A DNA stretch of 41,309 nucleotides from a virus, in the IMG/VR virus record IMGVR_UViG_3300005838_000025, positions 1 through 41,309 of that record, one strand, 5' to 3'. Shown here piece by piece: positions 9,927-28,919 of this stretch (position 1 is its first letter; the number at the start of each line of letters is the position of its first letter). The position numbers and the translations under genes were made by a program. The notes beneath the pieces are model-generated. The model was not told where the DNA came from, did no database searches, and saw only the letters and a program-made list of their open reading frames with translations.

Positions 9927-11421
9927 ATACACCCTCAACTGACTCCGCTAGGTCTTTGAGAAGTTGCTTGACTCCAAACTCCTGATCCCTTAAATCCGCC
10001 AGTCTATCAGAAGACTCTTGAACCTCTCTGGTTGCAGCCAGGCTCATGACCTCCTCATCACTTAGACCGAGCGCCTCCTTAAGCACGAACTTAAAGTCCA
10101 TCCCTAGGTCATTGGCTAGAATTCTAGCAGTCTGTGCTCGAACATAGTTGGTGTCTGCCTTCATCTTCTCATCGAAAGAGCTGACTCTCGGCATTCTAAT
10201 CTTGTATTTTATCGATGGCTTAACACCGGCTGCCGCTAACGCTCTCTGAATAACAGTGTGCATCAGATGAACAACTTCCTGCTGCTTACGGCGCACGGTT
10301 CTAGCAAACTGAAGACCCTGCTGCTCGAGTGTTGATCGAGCATTAACATTCTTCTCAAAGCCGCAGAGTGCAGCGGGAACGCCGGTCACAATAAAGAACT
10401 TGTCCTGCATGAATCTAAGCATATCAATGATTTGTCTTAAGTCTGCGGGTGGATCATTGTGGAAGCTCGGCTTTTCAGCGCCCTCTCGGTACGGGTAGAC
10501 AAGATCATCCATTGCGATAAGCGAGGTGATTCGTCTTCTCATCTTTCCGTCTCGGTCAAAAACCTGCTGACTCCACTGTCCAGACTTGAGGTTCTCAAGG
10601 AAGTCATCAACCTGATCCGGTCTAATATTGGAGGGCATCGGGTATGTAACAGACTTACGGGCGGCAGCCTGAAGAATGGAGAGAAGGCTCAACACATCCT
10701 CCGCAGCCTCACTCTGACGCCAAAGCTTTCTAGCTGTCGCGTACATGCTTCGCCCGTATCGACGCCCTCGGGACTTGTCGGGTGCATAGTGAACCACCTG
10801 AACTGGTGCCAGTGTAACTGTATCTCCATTGTTGTAGGTTGTTGGCGTCATCCTACTTTTGTAACCGACGATCTGAGAGTATGTGTTGACAACAACATCC
10901 GTAGACATAGGAATTAAAGGTCTCTCTGCTACCAGCGAAGAGCTTGAGAAGATCAGCTCTGTAAAACTGTCACCAAGAAGAGTGCCCTCCTTGAAGATGT
11001 GGACAAAGAAGTCCGTGCCGCCTACAGCCGCCAGTGCAGAGTTTACGATGTCCTTATATGGTTCGTCCGCATCTTCCTCAAACTGAATGTTGACCCCATC
11101 AACCGAATCCCCACCAAAAACAAAGTCGGTCAAAACCTGAAGAGCCGTCGCCATCTCAGGAACCTCGTCCCTAATCTCCCTGAAATCTAGATACCTAGAG
11201 CCTCGAGACCGATCATACGCCTCTTGATTCAAAGCCTTCATCTGATTAGACATCCGGCGAGCGCGCCTCTCCGCAGCAGACCCAGCGGTCGTCCCATTCA
11301 AGTCGACACCAGTAGCCCCGTACTCTGATGCGACCACTTCGGGGGCACCCTTAAACATTCGCATCATTCTATCGGAAAGCCTGCGTGCAAGCATGCTGTC
11401 GGGCTCAAACTTCTTAGCCAT
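9913..11421 (-). CDS. Portal protein, T4 gp20-like
   Basis: 502 residues. The portal ring forms the packaging vertex, binds terminase and later the tail. Features recalling the gp20 family are the segment GRSMYATARKLWRQSEAAEDVL followed by a conserved middle region (about 265-310), then MDDLVYPYREG, a helical stretch ending FFIVTGVPAALCGF, and a basic ARTVRRKQQEVVHLM helix. It lies between terminase and the minor head gene, the normal portal position. CGGAG precedes the ATG by about 10 nt. A 45-nt gap without genes separates it from terminase. The gp20 likeness is by eye and needs a profile search; portal identity itself is well supported by position, size and pattern. Confidence 0.85.
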   Translation of the reverse strand: MAKKFEPDSMLARRLSDRMMRMFKGAPEVVASEYGATGVDLNGTTAGSAAERRARRMSNQMKALNQEAYDRSRGSRYLDFREIRDEVPEMATALQVLTDFVFGGDSVDGVNIQFEEDADEPYKDIVNSALAAVGGTDFFVHIFKEGTLLGDSFTELIFSSSSLVAERPLIPMSTDVVVNTYSQIVGYKSRMTPTTYNNGDTVTLAPVQVVHYAPDKSRGRRYGRSMYATARKLWRQSEAAEDVLSLLSILQAAARKSVTYPMPSNIRPDQVDDFLENLKSGQWSQQVFDRDGKMRRRITSLIAMDDLVYPYREGAEKPSFHNDPPADLRQIIDMLRFMQDKFFIVTGVPAALCGFEKNVNARSTLEQQGLQFARTVRRKQQEVVHLMHTVIQRALAAAGVKPSIKYKIRMPRVSSFDEKMKADTNYVRAQTARILANDLGMDFKFVLKEALGLSDEEVMSLAATREVQESSDRLADLRDQEFGVKQLLKDLAESVEGVYGEE

Positions 11422-11466
11422 GAGGGATAACTCCGGATTGTTTAATGCTATTTTAAACCAACCGCG

Positions 11467-12933
11467 TCACTTTGTCGACACAAGTCGCAGCATCCTTTTG
11501 CGAGGAAAGAGGTATTCTGCAGAGTTGTACTGAGAGATCCTTCTAAGAGCCTGGCTTGCGGCGTCCACCTGGTCATCGTTTCGACCCAGGGGGAATTGAA
11601 GGAGCTCAGTAAGGAAATCCTGTAGAAAAGCGGACTTCTTGTGGAGAACAACCTGCCCAGCCTCGAACAGTGGAGAGACTGCGCTGAACCTTGCAACCTT
11701 GCTGCCCTCTGGTCTGACTGGTATGATACCGTTTAGGCTTCTCTTCAGCGTGTCAATGATCGCCGGACCATTCGCAGCGTCCTCTATCAGGATCTCTGTA
11801 CAGTCAGGGTGCCTTCTCGAGAGTCGCTCAATCGCAGCGATGGTCTGAGTGAACCCCCACCTTCCGCGCTCCTGGTCCAGAAGGTAATACTTGTTGTCCT
11901 TAGCTCCCCATACCTGTCCGCACACGAACGATCCTGGTCCAGCTTTAAATGCGGTGTCCCAGCTTTGAATAACCCTGTCGAACTTTTCCGGCAGATCATC
12001 ACAGTATTCAATCCAGGACTGGCTAACCATTCCGCCGTCTTGAGGAACGGGTCTCTGCTGAAGCTGAGCAGAGCTCGCAAAGGTACCCAGACTTTTCTTA
12101 AGTATGTCGATATCGTCACGGCTGAACCGGTCAGGCCATAAAAGCTCGCCGTCCTTCTTTCTGGGGTCTCTCCAACCTATTGATGTCTTAGCCGTTGATC
12201 CGTCGTACTCAGCTGGCAAGGTAAGCTTTTCGTATCCTCCGAGATCTTCCAGATGCCCGCAAAGATCACCAAAGTGCACACGCTGACCAATGACAATTCT
12301 TCTGGCTGTTTTTGGATCATTGCCGCGAGTGGACATGGTTTGATCCCACCAGTCTATGACAGCATCTCTACCCTTCTCGGACTGAGAGTCCAGCACCTTA
12401 TGTGGGTCGTCCACCTGGATGAAGTCACCACCTTCACCTGTCGCTGCACCGAGGACGGTGGTGGCGACCCGGACGCCACCACCAGTCAACTCGAACCTTG
12501 CCTTCTGATTCTGGTCCGGAGCGATATCACACTCAGGAAACCTTAACCGAAACCAAGGGGTCTGCATTACACGTCTGGTCTTTACGGAGTCTCGTACCGC
12601 AAGACCATGAGAGTACGATGAGCACAACCATTTGGTGGACGGGTCGTTGATCCAGGTCCACAAAGGGAAGAATACGCTGCATAGCGTGCTCTTACAGTGT
12701 CTTGGCGGCATGTTAATCACCAGGTTCCGAATGTCTCCACGCTGGCACGCCTCAAGGTGCTCGCAAATGGCATGAAGGTGCCATCCATCAATGAACTGAT
12801 TGTCGCCCTCAACGAGATGCCATGCGGACTCCATGAAACTATGAAGGCTCCCCTGAAGATTCTCTCTCGCAAGATTGAGTATCGCCTGAAGTTCATCGTC
12901 CCTAATGTTATGCGGGTTTAAGTCCTGCGTCAC
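11467..12933 (-). CDS. terL: Terminase large subunit (TerL)
   Basis: 488 residues, ATP-driven DNA-packaging motor and nuclease. The ATPase has a variant Walker A (NMPPRHCKS, about 74-82; Cys replaces the usual Gly) and Walker B FIQVDD (171-176). The RNase H-like nuclease shows SWDTAF (D326), IEDAANG (E384/D385) and NDDQVDAAS (about 452-460). The MPPRHxKS form is typical of one large terminase group. The start is GTG with GAGG seven bases upstream, overlapping terS by 26 nt. It is followed by the portal, as expected. Confidence 0.95.
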   Translation of the reverse strand: MTQDLNPHNIRDDELQAILNLARENLQGSLHSFMESAWHLVEGDNQFIDGWHLHAICEHLEACQRGDIRNLVINMPPRHCKSTLCSVFFPLWTWINDPSTKWLCSSYSHGLAVRDSVKTRRVMQTPWFRLRFPECDIAPDQNQKARFELTGGGVRVATTVLGAATGEGGDFIQVDDPHKVLDSQSEKGRDAVIDWWDQTMSTRGNDPKTARRIVIGQRVHFGDLCGHLEDLGGYEKLTLPAEYDGSTAKTSIGWRDPRKKDGELLWPDRFSRDDIDILKKSLGTFASSAQLQQRPVPQDGGMVSQSWIEYCDDLPEKFDRVIQSWDTAFKAGPGSFVCGQVWGAKDNKYYLLDQERGRWGFTQTIAAIERLSRRHPDCTEILIEDAANGPAIIDTLKRSLNGIIPVRPEGSKVARFSAVSPLFEAGQVVLHKKSAFLQDFLTELLQFPLGRNDDQVDAASQALRRISQYNSAEYLFPRKRMLRLVSTK

Positions 12934-14791: not shown

Positions 14792-15067
14792 ATGACTGAC
14801 CAAATATCTAGAAGAATTAAGATTCGAATCATGGCAATGGGCTGTTCGAGTCTTAAGAGTTTTGTTGAGGAGTATAAGTTGAACGGTGGCGTAAGACCAT
14901 ACTCTTGGTGGAGAAATCTTTCGGAGGGGAGTCCGTACTCATCTCTTATTGAGGCCAGTGAGTGCCTGGGTGTCTCTGTTGATGCATTAATAGGAAGGTC
15001 TTCAGATTCGGACAGCGTCTTAATTAGAGAAGGCGTTCCTGGTGGCAGGGTAAACCTTAATGAGTGA
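14792..15067 (+). CDS. Small putative HTH regulator, 91 aa
   Basis: First gene of the rightward recombination operon. The N-terminal half (RIKIRIMAMGCSSLKSFVEEY...YSWWRNLSEG) and the following SLIEASECLGVSVDALIG resemble a short XRE-like helix-turn-helix region, in which the last helices pack after the recognition helix. This would make it a repressor or activator of the divergent control region at 14668-14791. AAGGAG lies about 7 nt before the ATG. Its stop overlaps the exonuclease start by 8 nt. The family call is tentative. Confidence 0.6.
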   Translation: MTDQISRRIKIRIMAMGCSSLKSFVEEYKLNGGVRPYSWWRNLSEGSPYSSLIEASECLGVSVDALIGRSSDSDSVLIREGVPGGRVNLNE

Positions 15068-16133
15068 TAGAGCTGCACCGCCCAAGGACTCCATCGGGGG
15101 AACGACGGCAGCACAAGTCCTGGGTCATAGTAAGTATGGCAACAGGCATGCTGCATATCGTAAGATAGTTTCTGCGTTGGACGGGAATCCCATCAGCATC
15201 CCAGTGAACTTTAACATGCACCGTGGGCTGCTTGCTGAAGATAAGATTGTCGATATGGTTAAAGAGGACTTTGAGTCTTCCACGGGTATGCGTATCGCAG
15301 AGTTGTTTGGCAGCGGCGTTGTTAGGCATAAGGATTTTCCTTTTATACATGCGACAGTGGACAGGGTCGTCTTTGATAAGTCTGGGAAGATACGCGGAAT
15401 CGTTGAGGTGAAGAGCTGCGACAACACCTGGGCGAGCTTTGATTGGGAACGAAAGGATTACCGATGCCAGTTGGAGCACTATGACTGCATATTTAAATCT
15501 GCATATGAGTCGGAGATCTCCGAGCATGGTCTTGATCATAACTACCTGCTTGTGGCAACAGGCGATGAGCATACGTGGAGAACGTTTGTGAGAATGATTG
15601 AGTCCGGTGAAGACCCTAGTGTGCTGAAGCCCATCATGGGCGTCGAGTATCGCAAGGTTGACTTTAGCGGAAGCTATAAAGACGAAAGCCTTCCTAGGCT
15701 CGTAGACTTCTGGACGAAGAATGTTGAGCCCAGAGTTATGCCTGATGTTGATGGGACCGATGGGTGCAAGGTCAACATTATGGAGGCTAACCCTGAGCGA
15801 TCTGGCGGAAGGGTGGTGTCCGGTTCGGACCCTGAGTATGTTCAAGTCTCCACTATCATTGAGGGCAGGGCTAGGCTTAAGGCAAAATTAAAGGATCTGT
15901 CGGAGGAAGAGCGTGGGCTTAAAGAAGAGATAAGGCTCATGGACAACCACCTTAGATTTATTGTGGGTAGGAACAAGTGGATGGAGTCTGACTCGTTCAA
16001 GGTTACCGTGTCCAAAAGGGACGGTAGAAAGAAGTTCGATAAAGATCAATTCATGAGTGATAACCCAGGGCTTTACGAGAAGTATCAATCCGAAGGGGAC
16101 GGATATGAAGCTTTGAAGGTTACACTGAAATAA
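15060..16133 (+). CDS. YqaJ-family viral recombinase exonuclease
   Basis: 357 residues. YqaJ/lambda Exo-type enzymes resect double-stranded DNA so that an annealing protein can recombine the exposed strands. The N-terminal nuclease shows GGTTAAQVLGHS (13-24), MHRGLLAE (53-60, metal-binding Glu E60), ATVDRVV (D101) and the IVEVKSC signature (E116-V-K118). Residues about 270-300 are coiled coil (LKAKLKDLSEEERGLKEEIR). It is followed at once by the DUF1071-type annealing protein and SSB, as in many phage recombination modules. Confidence 0.88.
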   Translation: MSDRAAPPKDSIGGTTAAQVLGHSKYGNRHAAYRKIVSALDGNPISIPVNFNMHRGLLAEDKIVDMVKEDFESSTGMRIAELFGSGVVRHKDFPFIHATVDRVVFDKSGKIRGIVEVKSCDNTWASFDWERKDYRCQLEHYDCIFKSAYESEISEHGLDHNYLLVATGDEHTWRTFVRMIESGEDPSVLKPIMGVEYRKVDFSGSYKDESLPRLVDFWTKNVEPRVMPDVDGTDGCKVNIMEANPERSGGRVVSGSDPEYVQVSTIIEGRARLKAKLKDLSEEERGLKEEIRLMDNHLRFIVGRNKWMESDSFKVTVSKRDGRKKFDKDQFMSDNPGLYEKYQSEGDGYEALKVTLK

Positions 16134-16151: not shown

Positions 16152-16793
16152 ATGTTAGCAAAGAAAGTATGGGAATCGTTTAGGTCTAAGCGAGTATTTG
16201 AGAATGGATACATAGAGAAGAAGGGTCGATATAGTTACCTTGCGTGGCATGCTGCACAGGAAATACTTAACGACGACTTTCCGGATAACACTGTAGAGTT
16301 CTCAATGTATAAGCACCCAAGCGGGTATGAGACCTGTGCCATGTATTACCCTGACGGAACGGCAGAGGTAAACTGCACCATCACGATTAGGGAGGACGGC
16401 GAGTCCTTTAGCAGGAGCATGTTTCTCCCTGTTAAGGATCACAAGCATAAGTCTATTGTTAACCCAAACTCTATGGCAATAAACACTGCAAAGCAGCGGT
16501 GTGTTGTTAAATGCTTGGCGATGATGGGGCTTGGTCTGCATGTATATATGGGCGCAGAAGATGATCCAGAATACGTAATGACTGGGCTGGATAAGGTTAG
16601 AGGATTCTGCTCTGAGTTGTCCGTGTCTGAAGACAAGCTTAACCAGTATGTCAAATCAGTGGCGAACGGGAGTTCTATCTACGAGATTGCTGACAGAGAA
16701 AATGGCGACATCGATTCGCTTCTCCTTTACCTCAAAGACAAGGTAGAGGAAATAAATAATCAAGAAAACAACAAGCTGGAAGACCAGCAGTAA
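16152..16793 (+). CDS. Single-strand annealing protein, DUF1071/Sak3-like
   Basis: 213 residues. The motifs YLAWHAAQE (29-37) and the long block FLPVKDHKHKS, NPNSMAINTAKQRCVVK and GLGLHVYMGAED (91-137) match the DUF1071 family, known as Sak3-type phage annealing proteins. It would anneal strands exposed by the upstream exonuclease. The C terminus is variable and acidic. AGAGGAC precedes the ATG. The family assignment rests on this conserved block and fits the exonuclease-annealing protein-SSB order. Confidence 0.85.
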   Translation: MLAKKVWESFRSKRVFENGYIEKKGRYSYLAWHAAQEILNDDFPDNTVEFSMYKHPSGYETCAMYYPDGTAEVNCTITIREDGESFSRSMFLPVKDHKHKSIVNPNSMAINTAKQRCVVKCLAMMGLGLHVYMGAEDDPEYVMTGLDKVRGFCSELSVSEDKLNQYVKSVANGSSIYEIADRENGDIDSLLLYLKDKVEEINNQENNKLEDQQ

Positions 16794-16805: not shown

Positions 16806-17333
16806 ATGTGGCATTCGACGATAATTGGAAACGTGGGCGATAATGGGGAATTGAAGACTGTTGGAGATGGAAAGCAGGTCTTAAGCTTCAATGTCGGGAT
16901 TAAGACCGGCAGAGAAAACACAGAGTGGGCACAAGTTAGCGTGTGGGGCAACTACGGCGCGGCTATTGCGGAGTCTGTAAAGAAGGGTGCTCGAGTCACT
17001 GTTGTGGGACGAGTGACCGGTGTAGATGCATATCAAAAGAGGGACGGCGGATTCGGCAAGTCTGTGAAGATGACGGCTGACTCAGTTGAAATACATAGAA
17101 GTCGGGACGAGTCTCAGTCTCAGCAGTCTATGTCAATGCAGAAGAGGCAGCCTCAACAGCAACGGCAGGCTCCTCAGTCACAGCAGCAGTGGGGATCAAC
17201 TCCACAGCAGCAGCCTTCACCTAGCCAGGGACAGTGGGGTTCTCAGCCTCAACAACAACAGCAGCAGCCAAACGGTGGTCAGCAGCAGTGGGGGTCTGCC
17301 CCGTCCAATGGTAGTGACCCGATTCCATTCTAA
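16806..17333 (+). CDS. ssb: Single-stranded DNA-binding protein (SSB)
   Basis: 175 residues. Residues 1-100 form an OB-fold (MWHSTIIGNVGDNGELKTVG, LSFNVGIKTG, TEWAQVSVWG, GARVTVVGRV). Residues 100-168 are a Gln-rich, disordered linker with repeated QWGS units. It ends in DPIPF, close to the classic DDIPF tip that recruits partner enzymes. It would protect replication and recombination intermediates. AAGGAG precedes the ATG by 8 nt. It sits between the annealing protein and the resolvase. Confidence 0.93.
   Translation: MWHSTIIGNVGDNGELKTVGDGKQVLSFNVGIKTGRENTEWAQVSVWGNYGAAIAESVKKGARVTVVGRVTGVDAYQKRDGGFGKSVKMTADSVEIHRSRDESQSQQSMSMQKRQPQQQRQAPQSQQQWGSTPQQQPSPSQGQWGSQPQQQQQQPNGGQQQWGSAPSNGSDPIPF
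17181..17300 (+). repeat. Gln-rich QWGS repeats in SSB linker
   Basis: CAG-rich DNA encodes three copies of a (Q/G)QWGS unit, at about 17184-17200, 17230-17244 and 17284-17297, separated by Gln/Pro spacers. In-frame CAG-type runs could expand or contract by slippage. This is the disordered SSB linker rather than a separate gene. Confidence 0.7.
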
Positions 17334-17824
17334 TGAATATAATTGGGATTGACCCAGGGAAAAGCGGCGCTGTTGTCTCTATGAACTTAGAGACGCACGC
17401 CGTTTCCTCTAAACAAATAACGCCTATGGTCAAGGTGGGTAAGAGCAGGCAAGAGTACGACATCCAGGGTATGTCAGACATTCTTAAGTCTCTATCTAGG
17501 AATGGCGGCAAGGTCTTTATCGAAAGGCAGCAGGCTAGACCTGGTCAAGGTGTCAGCTCTATGTTTACAACGGGTATGGGCTACGGGTTGTGGCTTGGCA
17601 TATGTGGTGGACTAGAGATACCGATTGAGGTGGTCAGCCCGATTTCATGGACAAGGGAAATGCTGCGTGGAGTTCCAGGTGAAGGCAAGGGCAGGAACAT
17701 ACTCGGAGCAAAAAGGCTTTTCCCTTCAGAGGATCTGCGTAAAAGTGATAGAGCTCGAGTCGCCCATGATGGTATATGTGACGCACTGTTAATTTGCGAA
17801 TACGGATGGAGACTTAGCTCGTGA
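17333..17824 (+). CDS. RuvC-like Holliday junction resolvase
   Basis: 163 residues. The RNase H fold starts IIGIDPGKSGAVV (D7), then VFIERQQ (E64), with AHDGICDALLIC near the end (D146 and D150). These are the RuvC catalytic acids. It would cut branched recombination or replication intermediates before packaging. It starts one base inside the SSB stop and ends in a GTGA overlap with the next gene, so it is tightly coupled in the recombination operon. Confidence 0.88.
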   Translation: MNIIGIDPGKSGAVVSMNLETHAVSSKQITPMVKVGKSRQEYDIQGMSDILKSLSRNGGKVFIERQQARPGQGVSSMFTTGMGYGLWLGICGGLEIPIEVVSPISWTREMLRGVPGEGKGRNILGAKRLFPSEDLRKSDRARVAHDGICDALLICEYGWRLSS

Positions 17825-18505: not shown

Positions 18506-18795
18506 TTTTCGTCTGGTGCCGTGGGATCGCGAGCCCAACACTTAGAAGGCATGAAATTACTCACTTTCTCCAGCAAAAGGAGTGTCTTTTTCTTCTGCAG
18601 TGGATCATGTACGGATTAGGCTGGGTTATACTCCTAGCTTATCATCGAGACACCTACCTTGCCTACCGAATGTCGCCTTTCGAAATCGAGGCATATGACA
18701 ATCAGCATGACCCCACATACAACACCCAAGCAAGAAAACCTTATGCATGGATTAAGTGCATCCCCAAGTCATTTGAAAGGATTAAAAATGCCTAG
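18418..18795 (+). CDS. HExxH-type minimal metallopeptidase-like protein
   Basis: 125 residues. HEITH (46-50, the H-E-x-x-H zinc motif) lies in a membrane-adjacent hydrophobic setting, followed by QQKECLFLLQWIMYGLGW and then AYRMSPFEIEAYDNQ, where the Glu in FEIEAY could be the third zinc ligand. This arrangement (HExxH, hydrophobic stretch, FExEAY, ending in a YAW segment) recurs in a family of short bacterial and phage proteins that look like stripped-down M48-like metallopeptidases. Activity is unproven. The protein probably sits at the inner membrane. It overlaps the following gene by 8 nt. Confidence 0.65.
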   Translation: MFPIFFENSKVPSLLSKIAPFKVGGFSFLIFVWCRGIASPTLRRHEITHFLQQKECLFLLQWIMYGLGWVILLAYHRDTYLAYRMSPFEIEAYDNQHDPTYNTQARKPYAWIKCIPKSFERIKNA

Positions 18796-19174
18796 AATAC
18801 AGATCAATACCGACGATATGAGACTACAAAGGCTCGAGGAGATTGGAGAGCAACTTACGAAGAGTAATCCAGAGACCAGTATCTCTATCAAGAGAAGCAC
18901 TGCCTTTGACTACCTGATTGATGCCATAGTAAATGCTAATCAAACCATGAACGCTCAGAAGGCGGACATAAACAGGCTGCAGTCCCTAGTCAAGGATGGC
19001 GAGAAGTCAGAGGTTCTCCAGAAGAAGCTTGATGACCTAACTGAGGAGCATGAGAAAACTCAGTACAAGCTGAACGGATGCAGGAATGACTGTCACAGGT
19101 TAGAGCGTGGAGCCACAGGCATGATGGAGACAATCTCATTTCTTGTAGATAGGCTTCGAGGTCTCGAGCTATGA
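18788..19174 (+). CDS. Coiled-coil protein next to tubulin gene, 128 aa
   Basis: I use the ATG at 18788, preceded by AAAGG, rather than an in-frame upstream ATG at 18659 that lies inside the previous gene. Residues about 1-45 are mixed, and from about 55 the chain is heptad-like (KADINRLQSLVKDGEKSEVL; KKLDDLTEEHEKTQYKL). It overlaps the tubulin/FtsZ gene in an ATGA junction, suggesting co-translation. A filament adaptor or DNA-binding partner is conceivable, but this is position only. Confidence 0.6.
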   Translation: MPRIQINTDDMRLQRLEEIGEQLTKSNPETSISIKRSTAFDYLIDAIVNANQTMNAQKADINRLQSLVKDGEKSEVLQKKLDDLTEEHEKTQYKLNGCRNDCHRLERGATGMMETISFLVDRLRGLEL

Positions 19175-20190
19175 GTGAGGTTTCATTCCGATGGGGGTTC
19201 GTAGGGATAGGTCAGGGTGGATGCAGAATTGCTCAGTCATTTTATTCCCTGGGATACAAGGACTGTGTATTTATAAACACTGCCAATGTGGACCTAGCTG
19301 GACTTGATGTTCCGTCGGAGCTAAAGCTGCTAATTGGTGGACACGGTGACGGAGCAGGTAAGGACCCGTCTATAGCTGAAGAGGCAGCATCCAATCAAAG
19401 GGAGGAAATAGGTGACGCAATTAAGGCTTTATCTGATTGTGACCAGGTGTTCATATGCACTGGTGCGGGCGGGGGAACTGGTTCAGGTGCAGCCTTGCCT
19501 GTTCTTGAGATAGCGAAGATGTGTCTACCATCCATTCCTGTTGGACTGATATCCTCCATGCCTGCAAAGCAAGAGCTGGTTTCAGATGCAACCAGAAAGA
19601 ATGCGAAAAATCTTCTCAACGTATGCTGCGACTTGGCTGATTCGGGGGAACTGTCCCCGTTCATTGTTATGGATAACGAGCTAGTTAAGAAGAGGGTTAG
19701 ACCGAGATCATTAAGGACTCTATGGATCGACGGTAATCTTGCGTTCGCCAACATACTTCACAAAATCAACAGGCTATCTGCGACCCCAACAATGCTGGTT
19801 AGCTTGGATAAGGCTGATCTTAAGACGCTTATGTTTAGAAGCGGAACCCTCTTTGTAGGGTCTCGAGAAATCAACAATCCTGAAGACAGGGTTCTAGTTG
19901 AAAAGCACCTCAATATAGCGTTCACCGCTGGCACTGTGCTTCATTCTGATTCTCCGCTTAAAGAGTCGGACTGTGCTCTGGTTCTTACTATGCCGAGCAG
20001 GATTCTGGATGGTGACGTTAGGTTCTTTGACCTCTTTACCGGGGTGGTAAACAAGTACCTGACCACTATGCCAAACTCTTATATTCACCGGGGGATATAC
20101 GAAGACGAGTCTAGACCTGCGATTCGTGCTACAGTCCTGAGCATTGGAGACAAGTCTCCACGAAGTAAGATTGTGGCTAGGCTCAAGTAG
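19171..20190 (+). CDS. Tubulin/FtsZ-superfamily GTPase (phage tubulin)
   Basis: 339 residues. The G-box region starts FVGIGQGGCRIAQSF (T1 loop, Gly 12-17), with NTANVDLAGL near 36-45. The tubulin signature is intact as GAGGGTGSG (98-106). The T7 catalytic-loop region after helix H7 is SLDKADLKTL, with D213 and D216 in the places where FtsZ has NxDxAD. This points to a GTPase that can form filaments. The C terminus is basic (SPRSKIVARLK). FtsZ divides cells; phage relatives such as PhuZ position the phage nucleus and TubZ moves plasmid-like DNA. It abuts a convergent ParB-like gene with no spacer and overlaps the upstream coiled-coil gene. A captured host FtsZ is an alternative, but the length and sequence look divergent from host FtsZ. 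Confidence 0.9.
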   Translation: MSEVSFRWGFVGIGQGGCRIAQSFYSLGYKDCVFINTANVDLAGLDVPSELKLLIGGHGDGAGKDPSIAEEAASNQREEIGDAIKALSDCDQVFICTGAGGGTGSGAALPVLEIAKMCLPSIPVGLISSMPAKQELVSDATRKNAKNLLNVCCDLADSGELSPFIVMDNELVKKRVRPRSLRTLWIDGNLAFANILHKINRLSATPTMLVSLDKADLKTLMFRSGTLFVGSREINNPEDRVLVEKHLNIAFTAGTVLHSDSPLKESDCALVLTMPSRILDGDVRFFDLFTGVVNKYLTTMPNSYIHRGIYEDESRPAIRATVLSIGDKSPRSKIVARLK

Positions 20191-20784
20191 CTACTTTATC
20201 TCAACGAGATCCCCGTACTTCATTACGAGCCGCCCAATCTCAGACATAACCTCGTTGGCAACATCGGTATCATAGATTATAACCCTATGTATGGCAGGTT
20301 TAGGATCGTCCTCACACCAGGTCGATTCAGCCCCGTCGCCCTCTTCATCCACAAACGCCATCACAAGATCGTCTTTGAGACCTAGCGCATCAATGGTGTC
20401 CATCTCTGGACCATCGAGAAGAGACGATATTGCTTCAGCTAGTTTATCTGAATCCCATGTAGAAAGCTCCGCCGTCTTGTTGTCCACCAAGGCAAAGGCC
20501 TTTGCCTGCTCATCGGTCCCATCCCATTCAACACAAGCGACACTGTCCCAGCCAAGGGCTTTGGCGGCTGTTACGCGCCCAGACCCGGCTACGCAGGTGA
20601 ACGTATAGCTGCTAGTCTTTCTTACCAGCACAGGGAACACCTGCCCGTACTGAAGAAGACTTAGCTTAATCCCTTCAATGGATTCCTTTCCATGCCTCCT
20701 CGCGTTGTCCGGGTCGGCAACTATTTGATCCAGAGGCTTTAGCATCGGAATAAGATCCTTGTGAACATTCCCCTTGTTTTTCAT
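20191..20784 (-). CDS. ParB-like N-domain protein, 197 aa
   Basis: Residues 1-110 match the ParB N-terminal (ParB/Srx) fold: DNARRH (26-31), GQVFPVLVR (47-55), VAGSGRVTAAKALGW (65-79), and DEQAKAFALVDNKTAELSTWD (91-111), typical of phage ParB-like proteins, many linked to DNA modification. The classic ParB GERR CTP motif is replaced by GSGR, so CTP binding is uncertain. The acidic C terminus has no clear HTH. It ends exactly at the tubulin stop. The start has AAGGGA upstream. A role in DNA segregation is suggested by the neighbour only. Confidence 0.8.
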   Translation of the reverse strand: MKNKGNVHKDLIPMLKPLDQIVADPDNARRHGKESIEGIKLSLLQYGQVFPVLVRKTSSYTFTCVAGSGRVTAAKALGWDSVACVEWDGTDEQAKAFALVDNKTAELSTWDSDKLAEAISSLLDGPEMDTIDALGLKDDLVMAFVDEEGDGAESTWCEDDPKPAIHRVIIYDTDVANEVMSEIGRLVMKYGDLVEIK

Positions 20785-21939: not shown

Positions 21940-22296
21940 CTAAAGCAGTATGCCAAGAAGTATACCAGAAACGAGCCCGATAGAGACCGTTAAAATCTTA
22001 TCCTTTAATTCAAGGGATGATTGGTTTCTTTGTATCTCGCTTTTAAGAAGGTCTTCTCTTGCGAGGTAGAGCTTCATTCGTATGTCTATATCCCTTAGGC
22101 ACTTATCCCTTTCCGCCATGAGCGTTGGGACGGCAACCCTCTTGCACTCCAGAGCAGACCTAAGTTTTACCTCTGGAACAAGGATGCCTGAGCATGGTGA
22201 CTGAATGGGTATGGATGATTTACATTCTTCAGAATTCGCTGTCGAACTCAGAAGCAAGACTAGAACCAGAGAGGTCATCAATTCTTTCCTTCTCAT
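21940..22296 (-). CDS. Putative spanin partner with signal peptide and C-terminal TM, 118 aa
   Basis: Starts MRRKELMTSLVLVLLLSSTANSEEC, a good signal peptide with likely cleavage after the ANS region. Cys-rich periplasmic-type middle (CKSSIPIQSPC, then ECKRVAVP). The C terminus LTVSIGLVSGILLGILL is a membrane helix. It overlaps by 68 nt the candidate inner-membrane spanin gene at 22229. Overlapped pairs of this kind are typical of Rz/Rz1 spanins, but the usual lipobox of an outer-membrane partner is absent, so spanin identity is tentative. AAGGAG lies 8 nt before the ATG. Confidence 0.6.
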   Translation of the reverse strand: MRRKELMTSLVLVLLLSSTANSEECKSSIPIQSPCSGILVPEVKLRSALECKRVAVPTLMAERDKCLRDIDIRMKLYLAREDLLKSEIQRNQSSLELKDKILTVSIGLVSGILLGILL

Positions 22297-22501
22297 GCTC
22301 TATCTCCTTTATCGTCTCTTCGAATTCCTCGTTCGAATCAGAGAGTTCCTCCTCAAAGGGGAGCGAAAGTTTCTCGAGCTCATCAGAAATGCCAATGTCT
22401 CGTGTTTTCTTAGATGCAAAATACCGATATATGAATCCGAATATTAGGACATACGAAAGTATCTCAAGCGTCTTCCTTAGTGTCTTCCTTACCTGATCCA
22501 T
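22229..22501 (-). CDS. Candidate i-spanin-like protein, 90 aa
   Basis: The N terminus has a transmembrane segment (about 12-28, ILSYVLIFGFIYRYF) and a charged, coiled-coil-like C-terminal half (EELSDSNEEFEETIKEIEHEKE). This fits an inner-membrane spanin with a periplasmic arm. It overlaps the holin gene by 38 nt and the downstream partner gene by 68 nt. AAGGAG precedes the ATG. Spanin pairs connect inner and outer membranes in Gram-negative hosts. Confidence 0.6.
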   Translation of the reverse strand: MDQVRKTLRKTLEILSYVLIFGFIYRYFASKKTRDIGISDELEKLSLPFEEELSDSNEEFEETIKEIEHEKERIDDLSGSSLASEFDSEF

Positions 22502-22799
22502 CCTCGAGCTCCTTGATATCCACCTTGGCTTTGGATGATAGCATTCTCTTGATTAGAGCAACAGTGAAGGCAGACATTGCACCACAAGCAGCGCCGAGTC
22601 CAGCACCATGAGCAGTGGGCTCCATTCCAAATCCAACACCACACCCTATGATGATTGCAGATATTCTCAGAACTGCATCAGAGATGTGCTTGGGTAGCCT
22701 GTTTTTGCAGATTGGTTTGATTGCTTGGACTACGCCCCAGCTAACGAACGAGCAAACAAGAACGTGCTTGATGTCGAGCAACTTAATCAGATCTTCCAC
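22464..22799 (-). CDS. Putative holin, three membrane segments
   Basis: 111 residues. Likely transmembrane segments are at about 12-27 (HVLVCSFVSWGVVQAI), 43-60 (VLRISAIIIGCGVGFGM) and 64-86 (GAGLGAACGAMSAFTVALI), followed by a charged tail (KAKVDIKELEDGSGKEDTKEDA). This is a three-span holin shape and fits the KP-x-PK-spaced holin families of marine-type phages. The start is GTG at 22799, with AAGGAGG six nt upstream. It overlaps the upstream gene by 17 nt. It would form the membrane lesion that triggers lysis. Confidence 0.7.
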   Translation of the reverse strand: MEDLIKLLDIKHVLVCSFVSWGVVQAIKPICKNRLPKHISDAVLRISAIIIGCGVGFGMEPTAHGAGLGAACGAMSAFTVALIKRMLSSKAKVDIKELEDGSGKEDTKEDA

Positions 22800-23100
22800 G
22801 GATTGCCTCCTTGAGTCTTGGCATGCCTCGCTTGACTTCAGAGAGATCCTCCTCCACCTTTCTCAGCGAGACCTGGTTTTCTTTGGTGATCAGCATGAGC
22901 GAATCAATCTTATCCTCGAGACGTTCAACCCTAGACTTGGTATCCTCTGACCGCTGATGGGCGGACTCAGCCTTAGCCTCAACATCCTTAACCATGACGG
23001 TCACCGCAACAATCGAAGCAGCAACCGAGAGCGCCATGGGCACCCAGATTGAAGCAGCGGATATGTCGGTAGAATTATTATTATCTTGATGGCTACTCAT
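22783..23100 (-). CDS. Putative XhlA-like membrane/coiled-coil lysis protein, 105 aa
   Basis: Residues about 16-40 are hydrophobic (ASIWVPMALSVAASIVAVTVMV), one membrane span. The rest is coiled coil (AKAESAHQRSEDTKSRVERL, then SLRKVEEDLSEVKRG). This single-span-plus-coil form recalls XhlA-type holin-associated proteins. GGAG precedes the ATG at 23100. It is the first gene of the leftward lysis cassette and diverges from the glycosyltransferase at 23197 across a 96-nt gap. Confidence 0.65.
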   Translation of the reverse strand: MSSHQDNNNSTDISAASIWVPMALSVAASIVAVTVMVKDVEAKAESAHQRSEDTKSRVERLEDKIDSLMLITKENQVSLRKVEEDLSEVKRGMPRLKEAIRGRSD

Positions 23101-23196
23101 ACAAACTCCATTATAGCCAATATACTGGAGACATTAAACAATTTATACCCATCGATGCAGCATGCCTATATCGATCATGGCTTAGGAGATTCCGGA

Positions 23197-23820
23197 ATGA
23201 TAGTGACTGTTATAATCCCATACAACGTGTCAAGGGGATACCTTGGCGAAGCTGTAGATAGCGTTAAGTCTCAGACATACGAAAATGTGGAGCTAATCAT
23301 AGAGAAAGGTGACTGCGTTTGGCCGGTATCTGCAAATAAGGCTATTCGAAAATGCAAGGGCGGCTTGATAAAAATTCTTTCAGAAGACGATCTACTAACG
23401 CCTACAAGTGTAGAAAGTGCGGTTGAGTATTTTTCAACCAACGATGCGGACTTCATACACTCCAACGCAATAAATTTCCATAAAAATGGACGTGAAGAAT
23501 ACTGGAATCCTTCAGAACAAAAGTATCCAGGGTCGCCCCATCCAACACTTGAGCGAAATCTTGAGAAAAACAGTATCCACGGTGGAACTGTTACGTACAG
23601 AAAAAAGTGTTTTGATGAAAGGCTTTTTGATGAAACGCTTTGGACCGGAGAGGAATGGGAGTTTCACCTTTGGTTACAGAAAAGCGGATATAAACTTGGA
23701 TATTTAAATGAGTTTACGACCAGATGCAGAAGGCATCCTAATCAGAAGTCTCTTGGATCCCAGTCAAGACAAAAAGACAGACAAAAAGAATTCAGCAGAA
23801 TAAGAGCTAAATTCAAATAG
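23197..23820 (+). CDS. Family 2 glycosyltransferase (GT-A), 207 aa
   Basis: Begins TVIIPYN (residues 4-10) and continues LGEAVDSVKSQTYENVELI, the start of a GT2 Rossmann-like fold. The acidic sugar-nucleotide motif is EDD (63-65). I use the ATG at 23197 because AGGAG at 23184-23188 is 8 nt upstream; the in-frame ATGs at 23086 and 23155 lack a usable site and the first overlaps the divergent gene. It would transfer a sugar to a glycan or protein. It is alone on the + strand among the nearby transferases. Confidence 0.85.
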   Translation: MIVTVIIPYNVSRGYLGEAVDSVKSQTYENVELIIEKGDCVWPVSANKAIRKCKGGLIKILSEDDLLTPTSVESAVEYFSTNDADFIHSNAINFHKNGREEYWNPSEQKYPGSPHPTLERNLEKNSIHGGTVTYRKKCFDERLFDETLWTGEEWEFHLWLQKSGYKLGYLNEFTTRCRRHPNQKSLGSQSRQKDRQKEFSRIRAKFK

Positions 23821-23865
23821 TTCACCAAGGATATTAAAGTCTTGGATCTTAATTACCGTATGTAA

Positions 23866-24609
23866 TCAAAGCTTGTCCCAGTCAGTGCCTAGTACGATCT
23901 CATTTGTATGAGATCTTCGATCCATTGCCCCTCCAAGACTCCTGCTGCTGGCGTCCCATATCGTATTTCTAATATTTAAGACCTTAAAGTCCCCACTTGA
24001 GTGTCGTAACACGTATAAACTGATGCCGTTCTCTTGAGCATGCTTTGCGACAAATATATCACTCATATTTATATGTTTAAACATCTTAAGAGATGGAGTG
24101 AACGTATCCAAACCAAACGCCATACAGCCAGTCCCGCCGACGTTGACCCTTCGCGTTCTTTGAACGTGCCCCTTGCATGGGAAGGTGGTCTTTCCTCTTG
24201 ACGAATGGTACTCGCCAGCATTTTTATGAATCAATGCTCCATGGTAGCTAACAATTTTTCCAATGTGCTCATCTTTAAGAAGTCTTATTGTTCGACTTGT
24301 GTACCATTCTGGATAGATTATGTCGTCGTCGCAGGTAAAGACGAATCCATTTATTCCATATGTATCCTTCATCTCCTCGGAGCAGAAGTAGAACTTTCCG
24401 ACATCGCCAAGGTCTCCATGCTTCCCAGATGAAGACGTCTCGTACTCTACCTTATTAACACTCTTAGCCCACATCGGAACTTCACTCTCTTCATAATTGT
24501 TGAAGTAAATAAAGAGCCTATCGACCTGGGGAAGAAGGCTTTCACAGACGAGCTTTAATTCTTTCTTTCGAGAGGGAATCGTTGCAAGACACGCGACCAC
24601 TTCATTCAT
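23866..24609 (-). CDS. Putative glycosyltransferase (DxD motif), 247 aa
   Basis: Opens with CLATIPSRKKELKLVCESLL, a GT-A-like start, and carries FTCDDDIIYP (D94-D96), the metal-binding Asp cluster. VNVGGTGCMAFGLDTF is a later conserved stretch. The reading resembles small family 2-like phage and bacterial glycosyltransferases, but the exact family is not certain. It starts 8 nt inside the upstream transferase. It is the third gene of a four-gene sugar/methylation cluster. Acceptor unknown: host surface glycan or phage virion. Confidence 0.7.
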   Translation of the reverse strand: MNEVVACLATIPSRKKELKLVCESLLPQVDRLFIYFNNYEESEVPMWAKSVNKVEYETSSSGKHGDLGDVGKFYFCSEEMKDTYGINGFVFTCDDDIIYPEWYTSRTIRLLKDEHIGKIVSYHGALIHKNAGEYHSSRGKTTFPCKGHVQRTRRVNVGGTGCMAFGLDTFTPSLKMFKHINMSDIFVAKHAQENGISLYVLRHSSGDFKVLNIRNTIWDASSRSLGGAMDRRSHTNEIVLGTDWDKL

Positions 24610-25339
24610 CTACATTTCTCCCATTCAAAACGACGAGTCGATGAGGGGAGAGGTCGTCTTGGTGATATATTGTTTCGTCGTGCCACATGCTCTCATACTT
24701 CTTCCTCAACTCAGACCCAAACCCAGTCTCCTTATTATGAGTCAACTGATCCCCGTGCTGGCGGTATAGGTAGGAGTAGGCTCGATACATGCTTAGGTGC
24801 CCTCCTAGCTTCTGAGCTCGGTAGAACATGTCGCTATCTGCGGAGCACGGCCACTGACGAAACATGCCCAGCCTCTCTATCATGTTCCTTGAGTAAGCGT
24901 AACATCCGCCCAGAGGATGTATGGACCTCTTGAGCCTTCGTCCTGAAGCATCAATCTTGCAACTATATGTATTTACGATAGAGTTATAATTGTGGAACGA
25001 CCTGAGGATGTCCCTAGACCGAGACGGAGTCCACATGTCATCCACGCCACAGAAAGAAACTGAATCAGAATCAAGAAGACTGAGCCCTACGTTTTGAGCA
25101 CAATATGATCCAGAGTTCTTATCCAGCATCGCAATAGTAAAGTTGCTTCTGGCTTTAGAATCATAGAAGCACTCCTTGGCAATTTTAAGGGCATCTTTAT
25201 CCCCATCAACAACCAAGATGATTTGATTCAATGAAGACCACTGGGATGTCAGGCTGTATATGCAATCCCGAATGTATCCATGGTGTCCATAGATCGGGAC
25301 AACTACAGCCAGGGTCTTTATGGGTGACACTGCAATCAA
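24602..25339 (-). CDS. Family 2 glycosyltransferase, 245 aa
   Basis: Residues 10-50 (LAVVVPIYGHHGYIRDCIYSL; QIILVVDGDKD) are a classic GT2 start, with SFCGVDDMW (D100/D101) as the sugar-nucleotide motif. The start is TTG at 25339, with AAGAGG five nt upstream, overlapping the methyltransferase stop as TTGA, so translation is probably coupled. It acts with its neighbours on some surface or virion glycan. Confidence 0.85.
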   Translation of the reverse strand: MIAVSPIKTLAVVVPIYGHHGYIRDCIYSLTSQWSSLNQIILVVDGDKDALKIAKECFYDSKARSNFTIAMLDKNSGSYCAQNVGLSLLDSDSVSFCGVDDMWTPSRSRDILRSFHNYNSIVNTYSCKIDASGRRLKRSIHPLGGCYAYSRNMIERLGMFRQWPCSADSDMFYRAQKLGGHLSMYRAYSYLYRQHGDQLTHNKETGFGSELRKKYESMWHDETIYHQDDLSPHRLVVLNGRNVDE

Positions 25340-25905
25340 TTTGTCCTCTTAACTATAGCCACTTCCTTCATGGGAAAGTCAGGCACCGCCACATTGACAA
25401 CATCAAAACCCTCCGGAACCACTATGGGTCTATAGAAGCAATGCCTAGCAAGCCTCACCCCATCCATTAACCTGTTCCAATAACTAAAGACTCCAACGCT
25501 ACCAATGTTGCTAAAGAACGTACTCATAACTTCATTGTGAGCATCGTCACTATTAAGGTGAAAGAGCACGTCCATCATAATCACCATATCCATAGGATCA
25601 AAGAATCCCTGAATGTCTGACTTCTTAAATGAGGAAACAGGAGAAGGAGGAGAAGAGTTATGCCGCTGTATAACAGGTTGAGCTATATCAATACCGAGGT
25701 ACTCTGATGGGTTAAGTTGATCGAGTATAGGAAAAATTAAATTGCCATCTCCGCACCCAAGGTCGAGAATGCTTTCGCACCTTGATGCCTTAAACTCTCT
25801 AATTAGAATAGATCTCTTAAATTCGGCCTCATCACCATATGAACCGGCACCAGAGTCTCCCCCAGATGAATACCTGTTAGACCAATAATCATTCTCGTTA
25901 TACAT
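25336..25905 (-). CDS. SAM-dependent methyltransferase (class I), 189 aa
   Basis: Motif I is SILDLGCGDGN (45-55), the S-adenosylmethionine loop, followed by GIDIAQ (71-76), the acidic end of strand two, and DMVIMMDVLFHL (about 106-117), as in class I methyltransferases. The substrate is unknown, but the two downstream glycosyltransferases suggest O-methylation of a sugar. AGGAG precedes the ATG at 25905. It heads the leftward cluster and lies 196 nt past the capsid gene, beyond a terminator. Confidence 0.85.
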   Translation of the reverse strand: MYNENDYWSNRYSSGGDSGAGSYGDEAEFKRSILIREFKASRCESILDLGCGDGNLIFPILDQLNPSEYLGIDIAQPVIQRHNSSPPSPVSSFKKSDIQGFFDPMDMVIMMDVLFHLNSDDAHNEVMSTFFSNIGSVGVFSYWNRLMDGVRLARHCFYRPIVVPEGFDVVNVAVPDFPMKEVAIVKRTN

Positions 25906-26101: not shown

Positions 26102-27280
26102 TTAGGCGGTGATGTTGACCACTGCGAACAGGTTTGGTCGGATTGTCGCGTTTGCATAGCGAGTCATGACACCCATGTCTACACATGCAGTACGAGGATC
26201 TCGGAATACACCAAGGTCACTTACTGGAATGTAAGTAGCGTGGATGTGACCAATTTCCTGTGGATTGTCAGACTTAACGCCCAACAACAAAGTGTTGGCA
26301 GGCATGAAGCGCATTTTCCAGATGTCATATCGGTGGTTAGCTACGCCAAACTTGTTGCTGTAAGCATCGATATCGCCACGCACAGAATCAGTTCGGTCAG
26401 CGCCAGCACTAGTGATGCTGAAGGCTTGGAGTTGCTCAAGGAACAACAGTCCGTCAGGATCGCCAGCAATCCAGTTAGCGCCACGGAAACCATCAGCAGA
26501 CTTAAAGATGTCGTTGTCTGCAGTTTGGATTGCATCATAAAGAGTCTCTTGGTGAATCTTTGGATCCAATGAAGCGTAAACGCCCTGAGGAGTCTGTGAC
26601 CAGCCAACAGTGTTATTAGTGTTTGCGATAAGCTGATCAATAACTTCGCCCTGCATCTCACGTCGGAGCTCAGTAGCCATGAAGTTACGAAGTCGATCAG
26701 ACAAAGAGTCGCCGTACTGGCTCTCAAGATCTTGTTCAGCCTGAACTGTGTATCGAGCCTGAAGTCGCTTACACTCCGCAGTGATGGTTGAAGCAGTCAA
26801 AGAAAAGTCAACGCCAGCACCGTCATTGCAAGAGCTTTGGGGCGTTTCACCAGGGCAGTCCGCATAGTTTGGATCAAGACCAGTGTTGAAGTCAGTGTCA
26901 GGTCCGTAGACTCCTTGGTCCGCCTGCTGGTATCCCATGGTGTGAACGAAAGCAGTTGGACCGTCCATTGTTCGCACGTCCACAAGCTGATCAATTACGA
27001 TCTGCTCGAAAACCATGTCCACCATCGCAAGAGACTGCTTGGTGAAAGTAGCGATGTCGTCAGGAACGATGTTCTCCGTAAGAGTAGAAGGAAAAATCCC
27101 TCGGTCAGCCTTGAATACGCTGGCAATGTTGCCGCGCCGAGCTGTCTCTTGGATGAATCGGTACTGACGCTCCATTGCAGAAGCAACAACTTTCTGCTTC
27201 TCAGGACGCTTTGCGCTGATGTACTCACCCCATTTCTCTACGAGCGTAGGGGCATTCTCGTTTAATGCTAAGATACTCAT
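26102..27280 (-). CDS. Major capsid protein, T4 gp23-like
   Basis: 392 residues forming the HK97-fold shell. The stretch TAECKRLQARYTVQAEQDLE and the following ELRREMQGEVIDQLI (about 165-220) resemble the gp23 block with its RKLKA...E...D..., and the N terminus is a normal start for such capsids. GGAGG precedes the ATG at 27280 by 5-6 nt. It follows the gp21-like protease/scaffold gene by 13 nt and is closed by a good terminator. The gp23 likeness is by eye. As the most abundant virion protein it should have the strongest translation. Confidence 0.85.
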   Translation of the reverse strand: MSILALNENAPTLVEKWGEYISAKRPEKQKVVASAMERQYRFIQETARRGNIASVFKADRGIFPSTLTENIVPDDIATFTKQSLAMVDMVFEQIVIDQLVDVRTMDGPTAFVHTMGYQQADQGVYGPDTDFNTGLDPNYADCPGETPQSSCNDGAGVDFSLTASTITAECKRLQARYTVQAEQDLESQYGDSLSDRLRNFMATELRREMQGEVIDQLIANTNNTVGWSQTPQGVYASLDPKIHQETLYDAIQTADNDIFKSADGFRGANWIAGDPDGLLFLEQLQAFSITSAGADRTDSVRGDIDAYSNKFGVANHRYDIWKMRFMPANTLLLGVKSDNPQEIGHIHATYIPVSDLGVFRDPRTACVDMGVMTRYANATIRPNLFAVVNITA

Positions 27281-27293
27281 TTTATCCTCCGAT

Positions 27294-28586
27294 TTATGCC
27301 CGGTTCTTGTTGATAAGGGCTAGTAATTGTTCATTAATATCATTTGTTAAAGGAGCTTCTGCTTCCGTTACTTCTTCAGCAGACTCAGTGACGAGATCGT
27401 CAGCAGCGTCAACAACCTCTTGAACCACTGGCGCAGCTACAGGAGCATTGGCTTCTTCGATCATTGAGAAAAGTCGAGACGCATGAACAGGAACAACCTC
27501 TGGTCCAGAGATTAATCCAGACTCAACGAGAGCGTTAAGCTCCTTGCGAACCAATCCAGAGAAACGCTTGCCGTCAACAGCCTCTTCAACCGAAATCGCC
27601 AGAGCATCACTAAGTTCTCGAGCAAGCTTTTCTTCGCGAAGAGACTGAACCTCTTCATTAAGAGTAGAGAGTTGCTCCTTAAGCTCACGGGTCTCCGCCT
27701 CACTCAGGTTGGTGCGAGCACGGCTCACATCCATTTGCTCACGAAGAGCAGAAACCTGCTCTGCAAGTTTATTCTCGGTTACAGCTTCTGGATCATCAAA
27801 GCTTACAGCTTCCACAATCTTCAGAAGAACCTCTTTCTGGGACTCATTTAGAGTCTCCAGTGGATCACTCTCAGCTTTGACAACAGTAGCCGCCGCTGGA
27901 GCTTCTTCCACGATCTCAGTATTCTGATCGCTCATTTCTAACTCCTCTACGGCTTCGACAGTCTCCTCTGACTCATCTTGCCGCTCACGTTTTACAAACG
28001 TTCCTGCACTAGGAACTCTAACTAAATCATATGTTTCAAGATCGAACTCATGAACAAGCTGCACAGTCCTACCCATGAATCCGGGATTAGCCTCAAGATA
28101 CTGGCTGCCTTCATCAAGAGTGATTTTCTCAACAAGTCCGGTGCCACGCGAAGACGCGCCGATGTCCATGCCTGCACGATACAGGGTAAGAAGATCTCTA
28201 CCTGCAGCAGTGTTGAGAAGTGCAAACACGCCCTCTGCCATAGCGGTGTTACCATCAACAACAGTGTCAACAGATACAAGGCGGGCAGCAACTTCGAATG
28301 TCGACCCGGACTCTGGGTGACCCAGCTCTCCATCAACAAACTCACCCGATTCAAGCCTCTCTTGAAGCCTAGCATTTTGCTCAACAAATTCCCGAACCTG
28401 GTAGATACGCCGATTCTTGTTAACAACACCCGCTCGGCCTAACTCAGACTGAACTGCGGCGATGTAGATGTCTGGGTCAAGACTCAGGGTCTCAACATCT
28501 TCGACTAAGCGAGAACATTGCTTGACAAACTTTTCTGTCAAACTGGTCCTCTGCACACAAACGTCTAATAAGTTTTGCTTTTCCAT
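27294..28586 (-). CDS. Prohead protease fused to scaffold-like C terminus, T4 gp21-like
   Basis: 430 residues. The N-terminal ~200 residues look like T4 gp21-type prohead protease (serine): VVNKNRRIYQ (54-63), ELGHPESG (87-94, candidate catalytic H90), and GMDIGASSRGTG (139-150, candidate S145). After about 205 the chain becomes acidic and coiled-coil rich (EETVEAVEELEMSDQ; LSEAETRELKEQLSTLNEE), like a scaffold. So one gene seems to supply protease and internal scaffold. The capsid gene follows at once. A hairpin lies where the ribosome binding site should be (28589-28603) and no clear Shine-Dalgarno is visible. Confidence 0.85.
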   Translation of the reverse strand: MEKQNLLDVCVQRTSLTEKFVKQCSRLVEDVETLSLDPDIYIAAVQSELGRAGVVNKNRRIYQVREFVEQNARLQERLESGEFVDGELGHPESGSTFEVAARLVSVDTVVDGNTAMAEGVFALLNTAAGRDLLTLYRAGMDIGASSRGTGLVEKITLDEGSQYLEANPGFMGRTVQLVHEFDLETYDLVRVPSAGTFVKRERQDESEETVEAVEELEMSDQNTEIVEEAPAAATVVKAESDPLETLNESQKEVLLKIVEAVSFDDPEAVTENKLAEQVSALREQMDVSRARTNLSEAETRELKEQLSTLNEEVQSLREEKLARELSDALAISVEEAVDGKRFSGLVRKELNALVESGLISGPEVVPVHASRLFSMIEEANAPVAAPVVQEVVDAADDLVTESAEEVTEAEAPLTNDINEQLLALINKNRA

Positions 28587-28588
28587 GA

Positions 28589-28603
28589 CTGGTATCTTAC
28601 CAG
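28589..28603. promoter_or_regulatory. Perfect hairpin at the protease start
   Basis: CTGGTA-TCT-TACCAG is a 6-bp inverted repeat with a 3-nt loop, ending two bases before the protease ATG. In the mRNA it would fold over the place where a ribosome binding site is expected, and no Shine-Dalgarno is seen. A second, bulged repeat AACCTT...AAGGGTT at 28621-28642, with a short T run on the minus strand, lies just upstream. This may tune expression of the capsid operon or mark an RNA-processing site. Confidence 0.45.
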
Positions 28604-28656
28604 AGCAGCCATTACATTAAAACCTTAAATGTTTCAAGGGTTTACCGATAGGCTGG

Positions 28657-28917: not shown

Positions 28918-28919
28918 CC

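Follow-up and report, generated by a model that had tools for sequence, protein, structure and literature searches.

The tubulin locus

The window, by which we mean the whole stretch of DNA that was analysed, is an IMG/VR record of 41,309 bases, and the contigs examined, this record included, are classed as linear and carry no completeness estimate. It encodes a protein of the tubulin/FtsZ superfamily, here called P0001 (Table 1). The gene is the last in a same-strand series that runs RecE, Sak, SSB, RuvC, two small genes, a coiled-coil protein of 128 residues and tubulin, and with the RecE, Sak, SSB and RuvC genes on its own strand it lies, as the initial annotation had it, inside a recombination operon.

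Table 1. Positions of the tubulin gene, its motifs and the genes discussed in the text (window positions unless a contig is named).
Feature	Position	Strand	Evidence or remark
RecE-like exonuclease	15060..16133	+	phrog_434 4.2e-34
Sak-like single-strand annealing protein	16152..16793	+	phrog_8492/659 2.2e-25
Single-stranded DNA-binding protein (SSB)	16806..17333	+	phrog_44 3.1e-10
RuvC-like Holliday junction resolvase	17333..17824	+	phrog_1770 2.7e-23
128-aa helical coiled-coil protein, candidate partner	18788..19174	+	stop overlaps tubulin start (ATGA, 4 bp)
Phage tubulin/FtsZ-superfamily GTPase P0001, 339 aa, ATG start	19171..20190	+	PF00091, TIGR00065, AF2, phage-tubulin clade
T1 loop GIGQGG, residues 12-17	19204..19221	+	G12, G14, Q15, G17 invariant in 40 relatives
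T4 tubulin signature GAGGGTGSG, residues 98-106	19462..19488	+	
T7 (synergy) loop LDKAD, residues 212-216	19804..19818	+	D213 invariant, D216 = D/E
ParB-N-domain protein	20191..20784	-	PF02195 3.7e-9, phrog_620 3.4e-31, cluster c20
Lysis-like block: signal/TM, holin-like, TM + coiled-coil (Rz-like)	21940..23100	-	phrog_1129 0.0044, phrog_739 0.003
T4-type head genes (Gp23, S77 prohead protease, T4 portal)	26102-30443 and 9913-12933		
Glycosyltransferase-like genes (several) and a methyltransferase	23086-25905; G001 36833-38788		within the structural region
TM + coiled-coil gene of a relative	L009:11017-11280		same type as window 22783-23100
Membrane-protein block of relatives	L198:7600-8096; L212:11052-11435		equivalents in L200, L209, L233, L252
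Acidic N-terminal extension, examples	L310:4773-6044; L288:4914-6047; L011:2229-3311		

The overlap between the coiled-coil gene and the tubulin gene is kept in two relatives, L003 and L008, and a scan for the coiled-coil protein itself found it only in the near relatives of the window. Its AlphaFold2 model, of low to moderate confidence (pLDDT 75), is a helical hairpin with no strand. Considered as a partner of the TubR or TubY type, the protein had by eye first given the impression of a ribbon-helix-helix fold, which the model does not bear out, and we make no claim of DNA binding for it because the hairpin lacks a strand. The ParB-N gene is convergent to the tubulin gene and abuts it, and homologues flank the tubulin gene in L008 and L009 too. 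Near the gene we found no convincing tandem or inverted repeats, iterons or centromere-like array, and beside the relatives no iteron array. The lysis-like block lies about 2 kb from the tubulin gene and its assignments are weak. In L009, a relative of 75 kb, a TM plus coiled-coil gene of the same type as window 22783-23100 stands directly downstream of tubulin on the opposite strand.

Sequence and predicted fold of the protein

The three motifs that had been read from the open reading frame, the T1 loop, the tubulin signature and a T7 loop with both of its aspartates, are all present at the residues given in Table 1. The Pfam family PF00091 matches P0001 at 2.5e-17 (64.2 bits, cut-off 33), and a phmmer search against the PDB returned Aquifex FtsZ at 1.5e-15, the best of dozens of solved FtsZ and TubZ chains, together with staphylococcal FtsZ and Bacillus TubZ/RepX. 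Judged from such matches, membership of the superfamily is far above chance. With the NCBIfam FtsZ model TIGR00065, on the other hand, P0001 scores 75.5 bits against a cut-off of 295.2, far below the threshold of an FtsZ equivalog, and among the PHROGs it matches 17961, of unknown function, at 9.7e-11.

An alignment of 40 sequences leaves G12, G14, Q15, G17, N36, T37, D41, G61, A62, K64, C96 and G98 invariant, and likewise GGGTG, G106, P131, E135, N169, N189, D213, H306 and Y310, while position 216 holds an aspartate in 34 sequences and a glutamate in 6. The family consensus reads as a GxGQ[GA]G T1 loop, NT, D41, a T3 loop GAxK, CxGxGGGTG[ST]G and P131/E135, followed by N169, N189, D213 and a C-terminal HxGxY. 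Compared with the 96%-identical L003 (contig G003), P0001 has a dN of 0.020 and a dS of 0.538, a ratio of about 0.04, which indicates strong purifying selection; towards L008, 61% identical, the synonymous sites are saturated and no ratio is therefore given for that pair.

The AlphaFold2 model of P0001, made with the family alignment as input, shows a tubulin fold (pLDDT 92.5, pTM 0.92) of the two-domain architecture, with helix H7 at residues 181-202 and T7 following at 211-217. In Foldseek searches against the PDB the E-values reach down to 4e-23. Among the 50 PDB matches listed, the highest TMq values belong to TubZ chains (0.76-0.82; FtsZ chains 0.63-0.71) and the best E-values to FtsZ. 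The best fold match among viral models is A0A6J5RW92 from an uncultured Caudovirales phage, with a TMq of 0.88, and annotated PhuZ and tubulin-like models lie at about 0.54-0.58; across the annotated and the phiKZ-like viral models, the TM is about 0.51-0.60 and the identity 11-16%. In the model the chain stops 13 residues past the last strand; sequence and model have neither the C-terminal helix H11 and tail of the TubZ type nor the C-terminal linker and conserved C-terminal peptide of FtsZ. The C terminus of P0001 is basic, GDKSPRSKIVARLK.

Phylogeny

Two IQ-TREE analyses, of 53 and 65 sequences, both gather the phage proteins, almost all from uncultivated tailed phages, and two MAG contigs in a single clade (support 97/94 and 96/96), in which the window protein, L008 and L009 make up a basal subclade (100/99). 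The nearest group is plasmid TubZ, with weak to moderate support (93/89, 87/87), and FtsZ, PhuZ on its long branch, phage G and a chromosomal group fall outside the phage clade in both trees. A position inside a host FtsZ clade, against which the initial annotation had set its own reading, is seen in neither tree, and constraining the window's subclade with FtsZ gave a borderline result in the AU test (p = 0.057). Constrained with PhuZ the subclade gave p 0.31, a grouping that is not rejected and in which long branches are involved. With strong bootstraps and less decisive AU tests, the deep placement of the window protein is well supported, not proven.

Profile scores go in the same direction. 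P0001 reaches 237.8 bits with a family profile built without the window's own subclade and 217.0 with a five-sequence family profile. The scores are lower with profiles of the chromosomal group (119.3), TubZ (107.5), FtsZ (71.7) and PhuZ (9.9), which are home-made, small and unequal in size. Profile, fold and phylogeny alike agree with the suggestion that the protein diverges from host FtsZ, and the basic C terminus mentioned in that connection is real. Taken together, the comparisons support the conclusion that P0001 is a phage tubulin whose clade stands apart from host FtsZ, from plasmid TubZ and from the PhuZ of jumbo phages. The reading of the gene as a phage-encoded GTPase of the tubulin/FtsZ family stands on the Pfam match, the predicted fold and the phage clade; of the two kinds of phage tubulin cited with it, PhuZ and TubZ, the protein is probably not a PhuZ and probably not a typical TubZ.

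The chromosomal tubulin-like proteins, L112, L113, L114 and L115 from Myxococcota and Latescibacterota MAGs, form a clade of their own outside the phage and TubZ group, and three of them carry a long C-terminal extension (575-824 aa as called).

The phage that carries the gene

Three contigs overlap the window. Over the overlap, identity to it exceeds 99.9% for G001 and for G002 and is about 87-96% for G003; G003 reaches about 4.9 kb beyond the left end and G001 about 10.7 kb beyond the right end, where it adds a tape-measure type ORF of 1848 aa and more tail-like genes. The window is thus a fragment, and the genome, taken at first to be near 41 kb, is at least about 57 kb. Its backbone is that of a tailed phage, with TerL (PF17289), a T4-type portal (PF07230), a T4-type major capsid protein Gp23 (PF07068), an S77-type prohead protease and DnaB, and the scan of genes over about 57 kb recognised neither an integrase nor a repressor. 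A phage with these T4-type head genes may have a genome of only about 60 kb. The structural region also holds several glycosyltransferase-like genes and a methyltransferase (Table 1).

Distribution of the clade

No match to P0001 was found by tblastn at E 0.01 in 50,697 records of named phages, a collection that does not include Clostridium phage c-st, and its matches at E<=10 in the collection are at chance level. With two of the relatives as queries the sole named-phage match was gp138 of Bacillus phage G, and a third relative gave none. In IMG/VR, pattern and tblastn scans run with different patterns returned overlapping sets of 135, 150 and 415 contigs that hold relatives, and the contigs that bear the gene span about 4 to 241 kb. 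The gene occurs in unrelated phage backbones across these hundreds of environmental contigs and is for that reason no rarity; it had been called unusual for a genome near 41 kb, but it is rare only among cultured, named phages. Among 84,980 cellular genomes the best matches are the two MAG contigs that the trees place with the phage proteins, followed by FtsZ-like proteins of Myxococcota and Latescibacterota chromosomes, a TubZ-like protein of an Alicyclobacillus plasmid and archaeal FtsZ. When relatives were sought by the terminase, a contig 92% identical (G055) carries the tubulin gene and 19 others show none; this is uninformative, since all of them are fragments.

In the literature, searched apart from subscription papers and preprints, no paper that describes this clade came up. 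A study of a hot-spring virome names a tubulin/FtsZ cluster and does not analyse it further (PMC8597652), and a survey of jumbo phages lists two distinct FtsZ/tubulin types (PMC7824862).

Gene neighbourhoods and N-termini of the relatives

The relatives share no common upstream partner. In one set, group A, TerL (phrog_2) is followed by a protein of about 660 aa and then by tubulin; in group B (L212) tubulin lies about 1.4 kb ahead of TerL and a T4-type portal (PF07230). It is found upstream of a portal in L044, L060 and L069 (phrog_213 being among the portal assignments in relatives) and ahead of DnaB in L310. Such varied neighbours argue that it is the tubulin itself, and not a fixed operon, that is kept. 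In profile-profile comparison, the protein of about 660 aa in group A and cluster c29 did not show a portal identity, and cluster c22 gave only a weak match as a terminase.

Small genes for TM proteins, TM proteins with a coiled coil or lipoproteins flank tubulin in L198, L209, L212, L051, L065, L027 and L045, the TM calls coming from a simple hydropathy scan, and one flanking membrane gene has a weak Rz-spanin match. A block order is conserved in L198, L212 and the contigs with equivalents (Table 1): a 61-aa TM protein, a 104-aa protein with TM and coiled coil, tubulin, a 127-aa signal/TM protein, a 138-aa Cys-rich protein, TerL and a T4-type portal. The membrane-protein genes of the block have no confident family match, and could possibly be membrane anchors or lysis genes.

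Ahead of the T1 loop, 29 of 45 sequences have [DE][IL]P, as compared with 5.3 expected by shuffling, the sequences being related to each other. Most of the clade carries an acidic N-terminal extension in which a PDIP[LIM]P[DE]-like motif recurs, whereas the window's subclade lacks it. The motif bears a superficial resemblance to the DIP found in the C-terminal peptide of FtsZ.

Possible function

We consider it somewhat better than an even case that P0001 is a phage tubulin which, in lytic growth, forms GTP-driven filaments that place the phage DNA or the sites of assembly. As in the rest of the superfamily, the protein would bind GTP and polymerise head to tail, and D213 and D216 in the T7 loop of each subunit would complete the GTPase site of its neighbour. 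By analogy with PhuZ, and given the gene context, the dynamic filament would then organise the infected cell, either by placing the replicating and recombining phage DNA or by placing the site of head filling and assembly. That the gene comes last in the RecE/Sak/SSB/RuvC operon suggests co-expression with the replication genes, and the unrelated backbones with TerL and portal or DnaB as neighbours fit a general role in intracellular organisation. The 128-aa coiled-coil protein would be the best candidate for an adaptor or regulator of the tubulin. That this partner is limited to near relatives counts against the filament reading, as does the missing tail of the TubZ type.

A different use of filaments, and in our view an unlikely one, would be partition of the TubZRC type, in which they separate a plasmid-like prophage through an adaptor bound to a centromere, the 128-aa protein and the ParB-N protein serving as the DNA-binding parts. 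The fold is closest to TubZ by TM, the tree has plasmid TubZ as sister with weak support, and both the overlapping small upstream gene and the ParB-N neighbour are conserved in the window's subclade. The 128-aa protein is, however, unlike the proteins upstream of three plasmid TubZ operons and unlike gp137 of phage G, and its model, with modest confidence, is a hairpin and not a winged helix. No iteron-like or tandem repeats accompany the gene and no iteron array its relatives, the scanned part of the genome yielded no recognisable integrase or repressor, and the relatives lack a shared upstream partner, many of them instead adjoining terminase or portal. Because the searches turned up neither a TubR nor iterons nor lysogeny genes, partition becomes the less likely reading.

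Filaments that act on the phage's own DNA or assembly sites also have to be weighed against an action on the division of the host, in which P0001 would co-polymerise with FtsZ, cap it or compete with it, and thereby block septation or redirect the Z-ring. The known phage inhibitors of FtsZ are small unrelated proteins. The full GTPase site, T7 and the C-terminal domain are conserved over very diverse phages, as expected of a protein that polymerises with itself, and the trees separate P0001 from FtsZ. On the other side, two of the three members of the window's subclade reach 72-76 bits with the small FtsZ profile, against 36-55 for TubZ and phage G, and the AU test is no more than borderline in rejecting a common group of the subclade and FtsZ. 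A phage protein that binds FtsZ does exist in Gp0.4 of T7 (PMC13423816). We nevertheless regard an action on host division as improbable. Slightly more doubtful again is a late role at the membrane, where filaments anchored by adjoining membrane proteins would site head filling or lysis: small membrane-protein genes, one with the weak spanin match, flank tubulin in several relatives, TerL and portal adjoin it and the acidic N-terminal extension of many relatives could bind a partner, but the window gene sits in a replication and recombination operon convergent to the late genes and lacks the N-terminal motif, terminase and lysis genes are often neighbours anyway, and the TM calls come from hydropathy only.

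Going one step further than the role of P0001 itself, we tentatively hypothesize, at somewhat less than an even chance, that the clade is a third class of phage tubulins beside TubZ and PhuZ, common in lytic environmental phages of ordinary size, which would organise replication or head filling with neither a nucleus nor a partition complex. If so, phage cytoskeletons would be widespread and would have escaped the culture collections, and the distribution suggests that phages well below jumbo size build a cytoskeleton of their own in bacteria. Of note here are the breadth of the clade and its presence in a lineage of at least 57 kb, so far not shown to be jumbo. Should P0001 polymerise, phage cytoskeletons would be much commoner than thought and their explanation by large virions would need revision, and its compact subunit of 339 aa with a candidate coiled-coil partner would offer a simple system for asking what a phage tubulin is for.

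Comparison with known tubulin systems

Bacterial and archaeal FtsZ shares with P0001 the core GTPase motifs, a T7 loop of the NLDFAD kind and roughly 23-33% identity over the core; P0001 differs by having no C-terminal extension of the FtsZ type, by falling below the cut-off of TIGR00065 and by branching apart from the FtsZ clade in both trees. TubZ of Bacillus plasmids and Clostridium phage c-st (PDB 2xka, 4ei7, 3v3t) has the GTPase and T7 motifs in common with it, and plasmid TubZ resembles it in superfamily fold, as the weak sister group and in the small gene upstream. The identity to TubZ is however about 20%, the 96/96 clade is separate, and a recognisable TubR, iterons and a long C-terminal helix and tail are lacking in P0001, whereas TubZ needs its long C-terminal tail for its dynamics (PMC5322520).

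The gp138 of Bacillus phage G, annotated as putative FtsZ-like, is matched by two of the relatives and is directly preceded by a small gene, but in both trees it pairs with a Pontibacillus plasmid tubulin (100/99), and the pair lies outside the clade to which P0001 belongs. A0A6J5RW92, annotated as 'FtsZ Cell division GTPase' and 25% identical to P0001, is probably the same kind of protein, as is PHROG 17961, and through such automatic annotation these proteins are probably in the databases already. PhuZ of the phiKZ-like jumbo phages is, like P0001, a phage-encoded tubulin; the identity is as low as in the fold comparison, PhuZ has its long separate branch, and the present clade is found outside the phiKZ-like jumbo phages. 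In function PhuZ is the precedent, since it positions the phage DNA and carries capsids (PMC4244570, PMC7950403).
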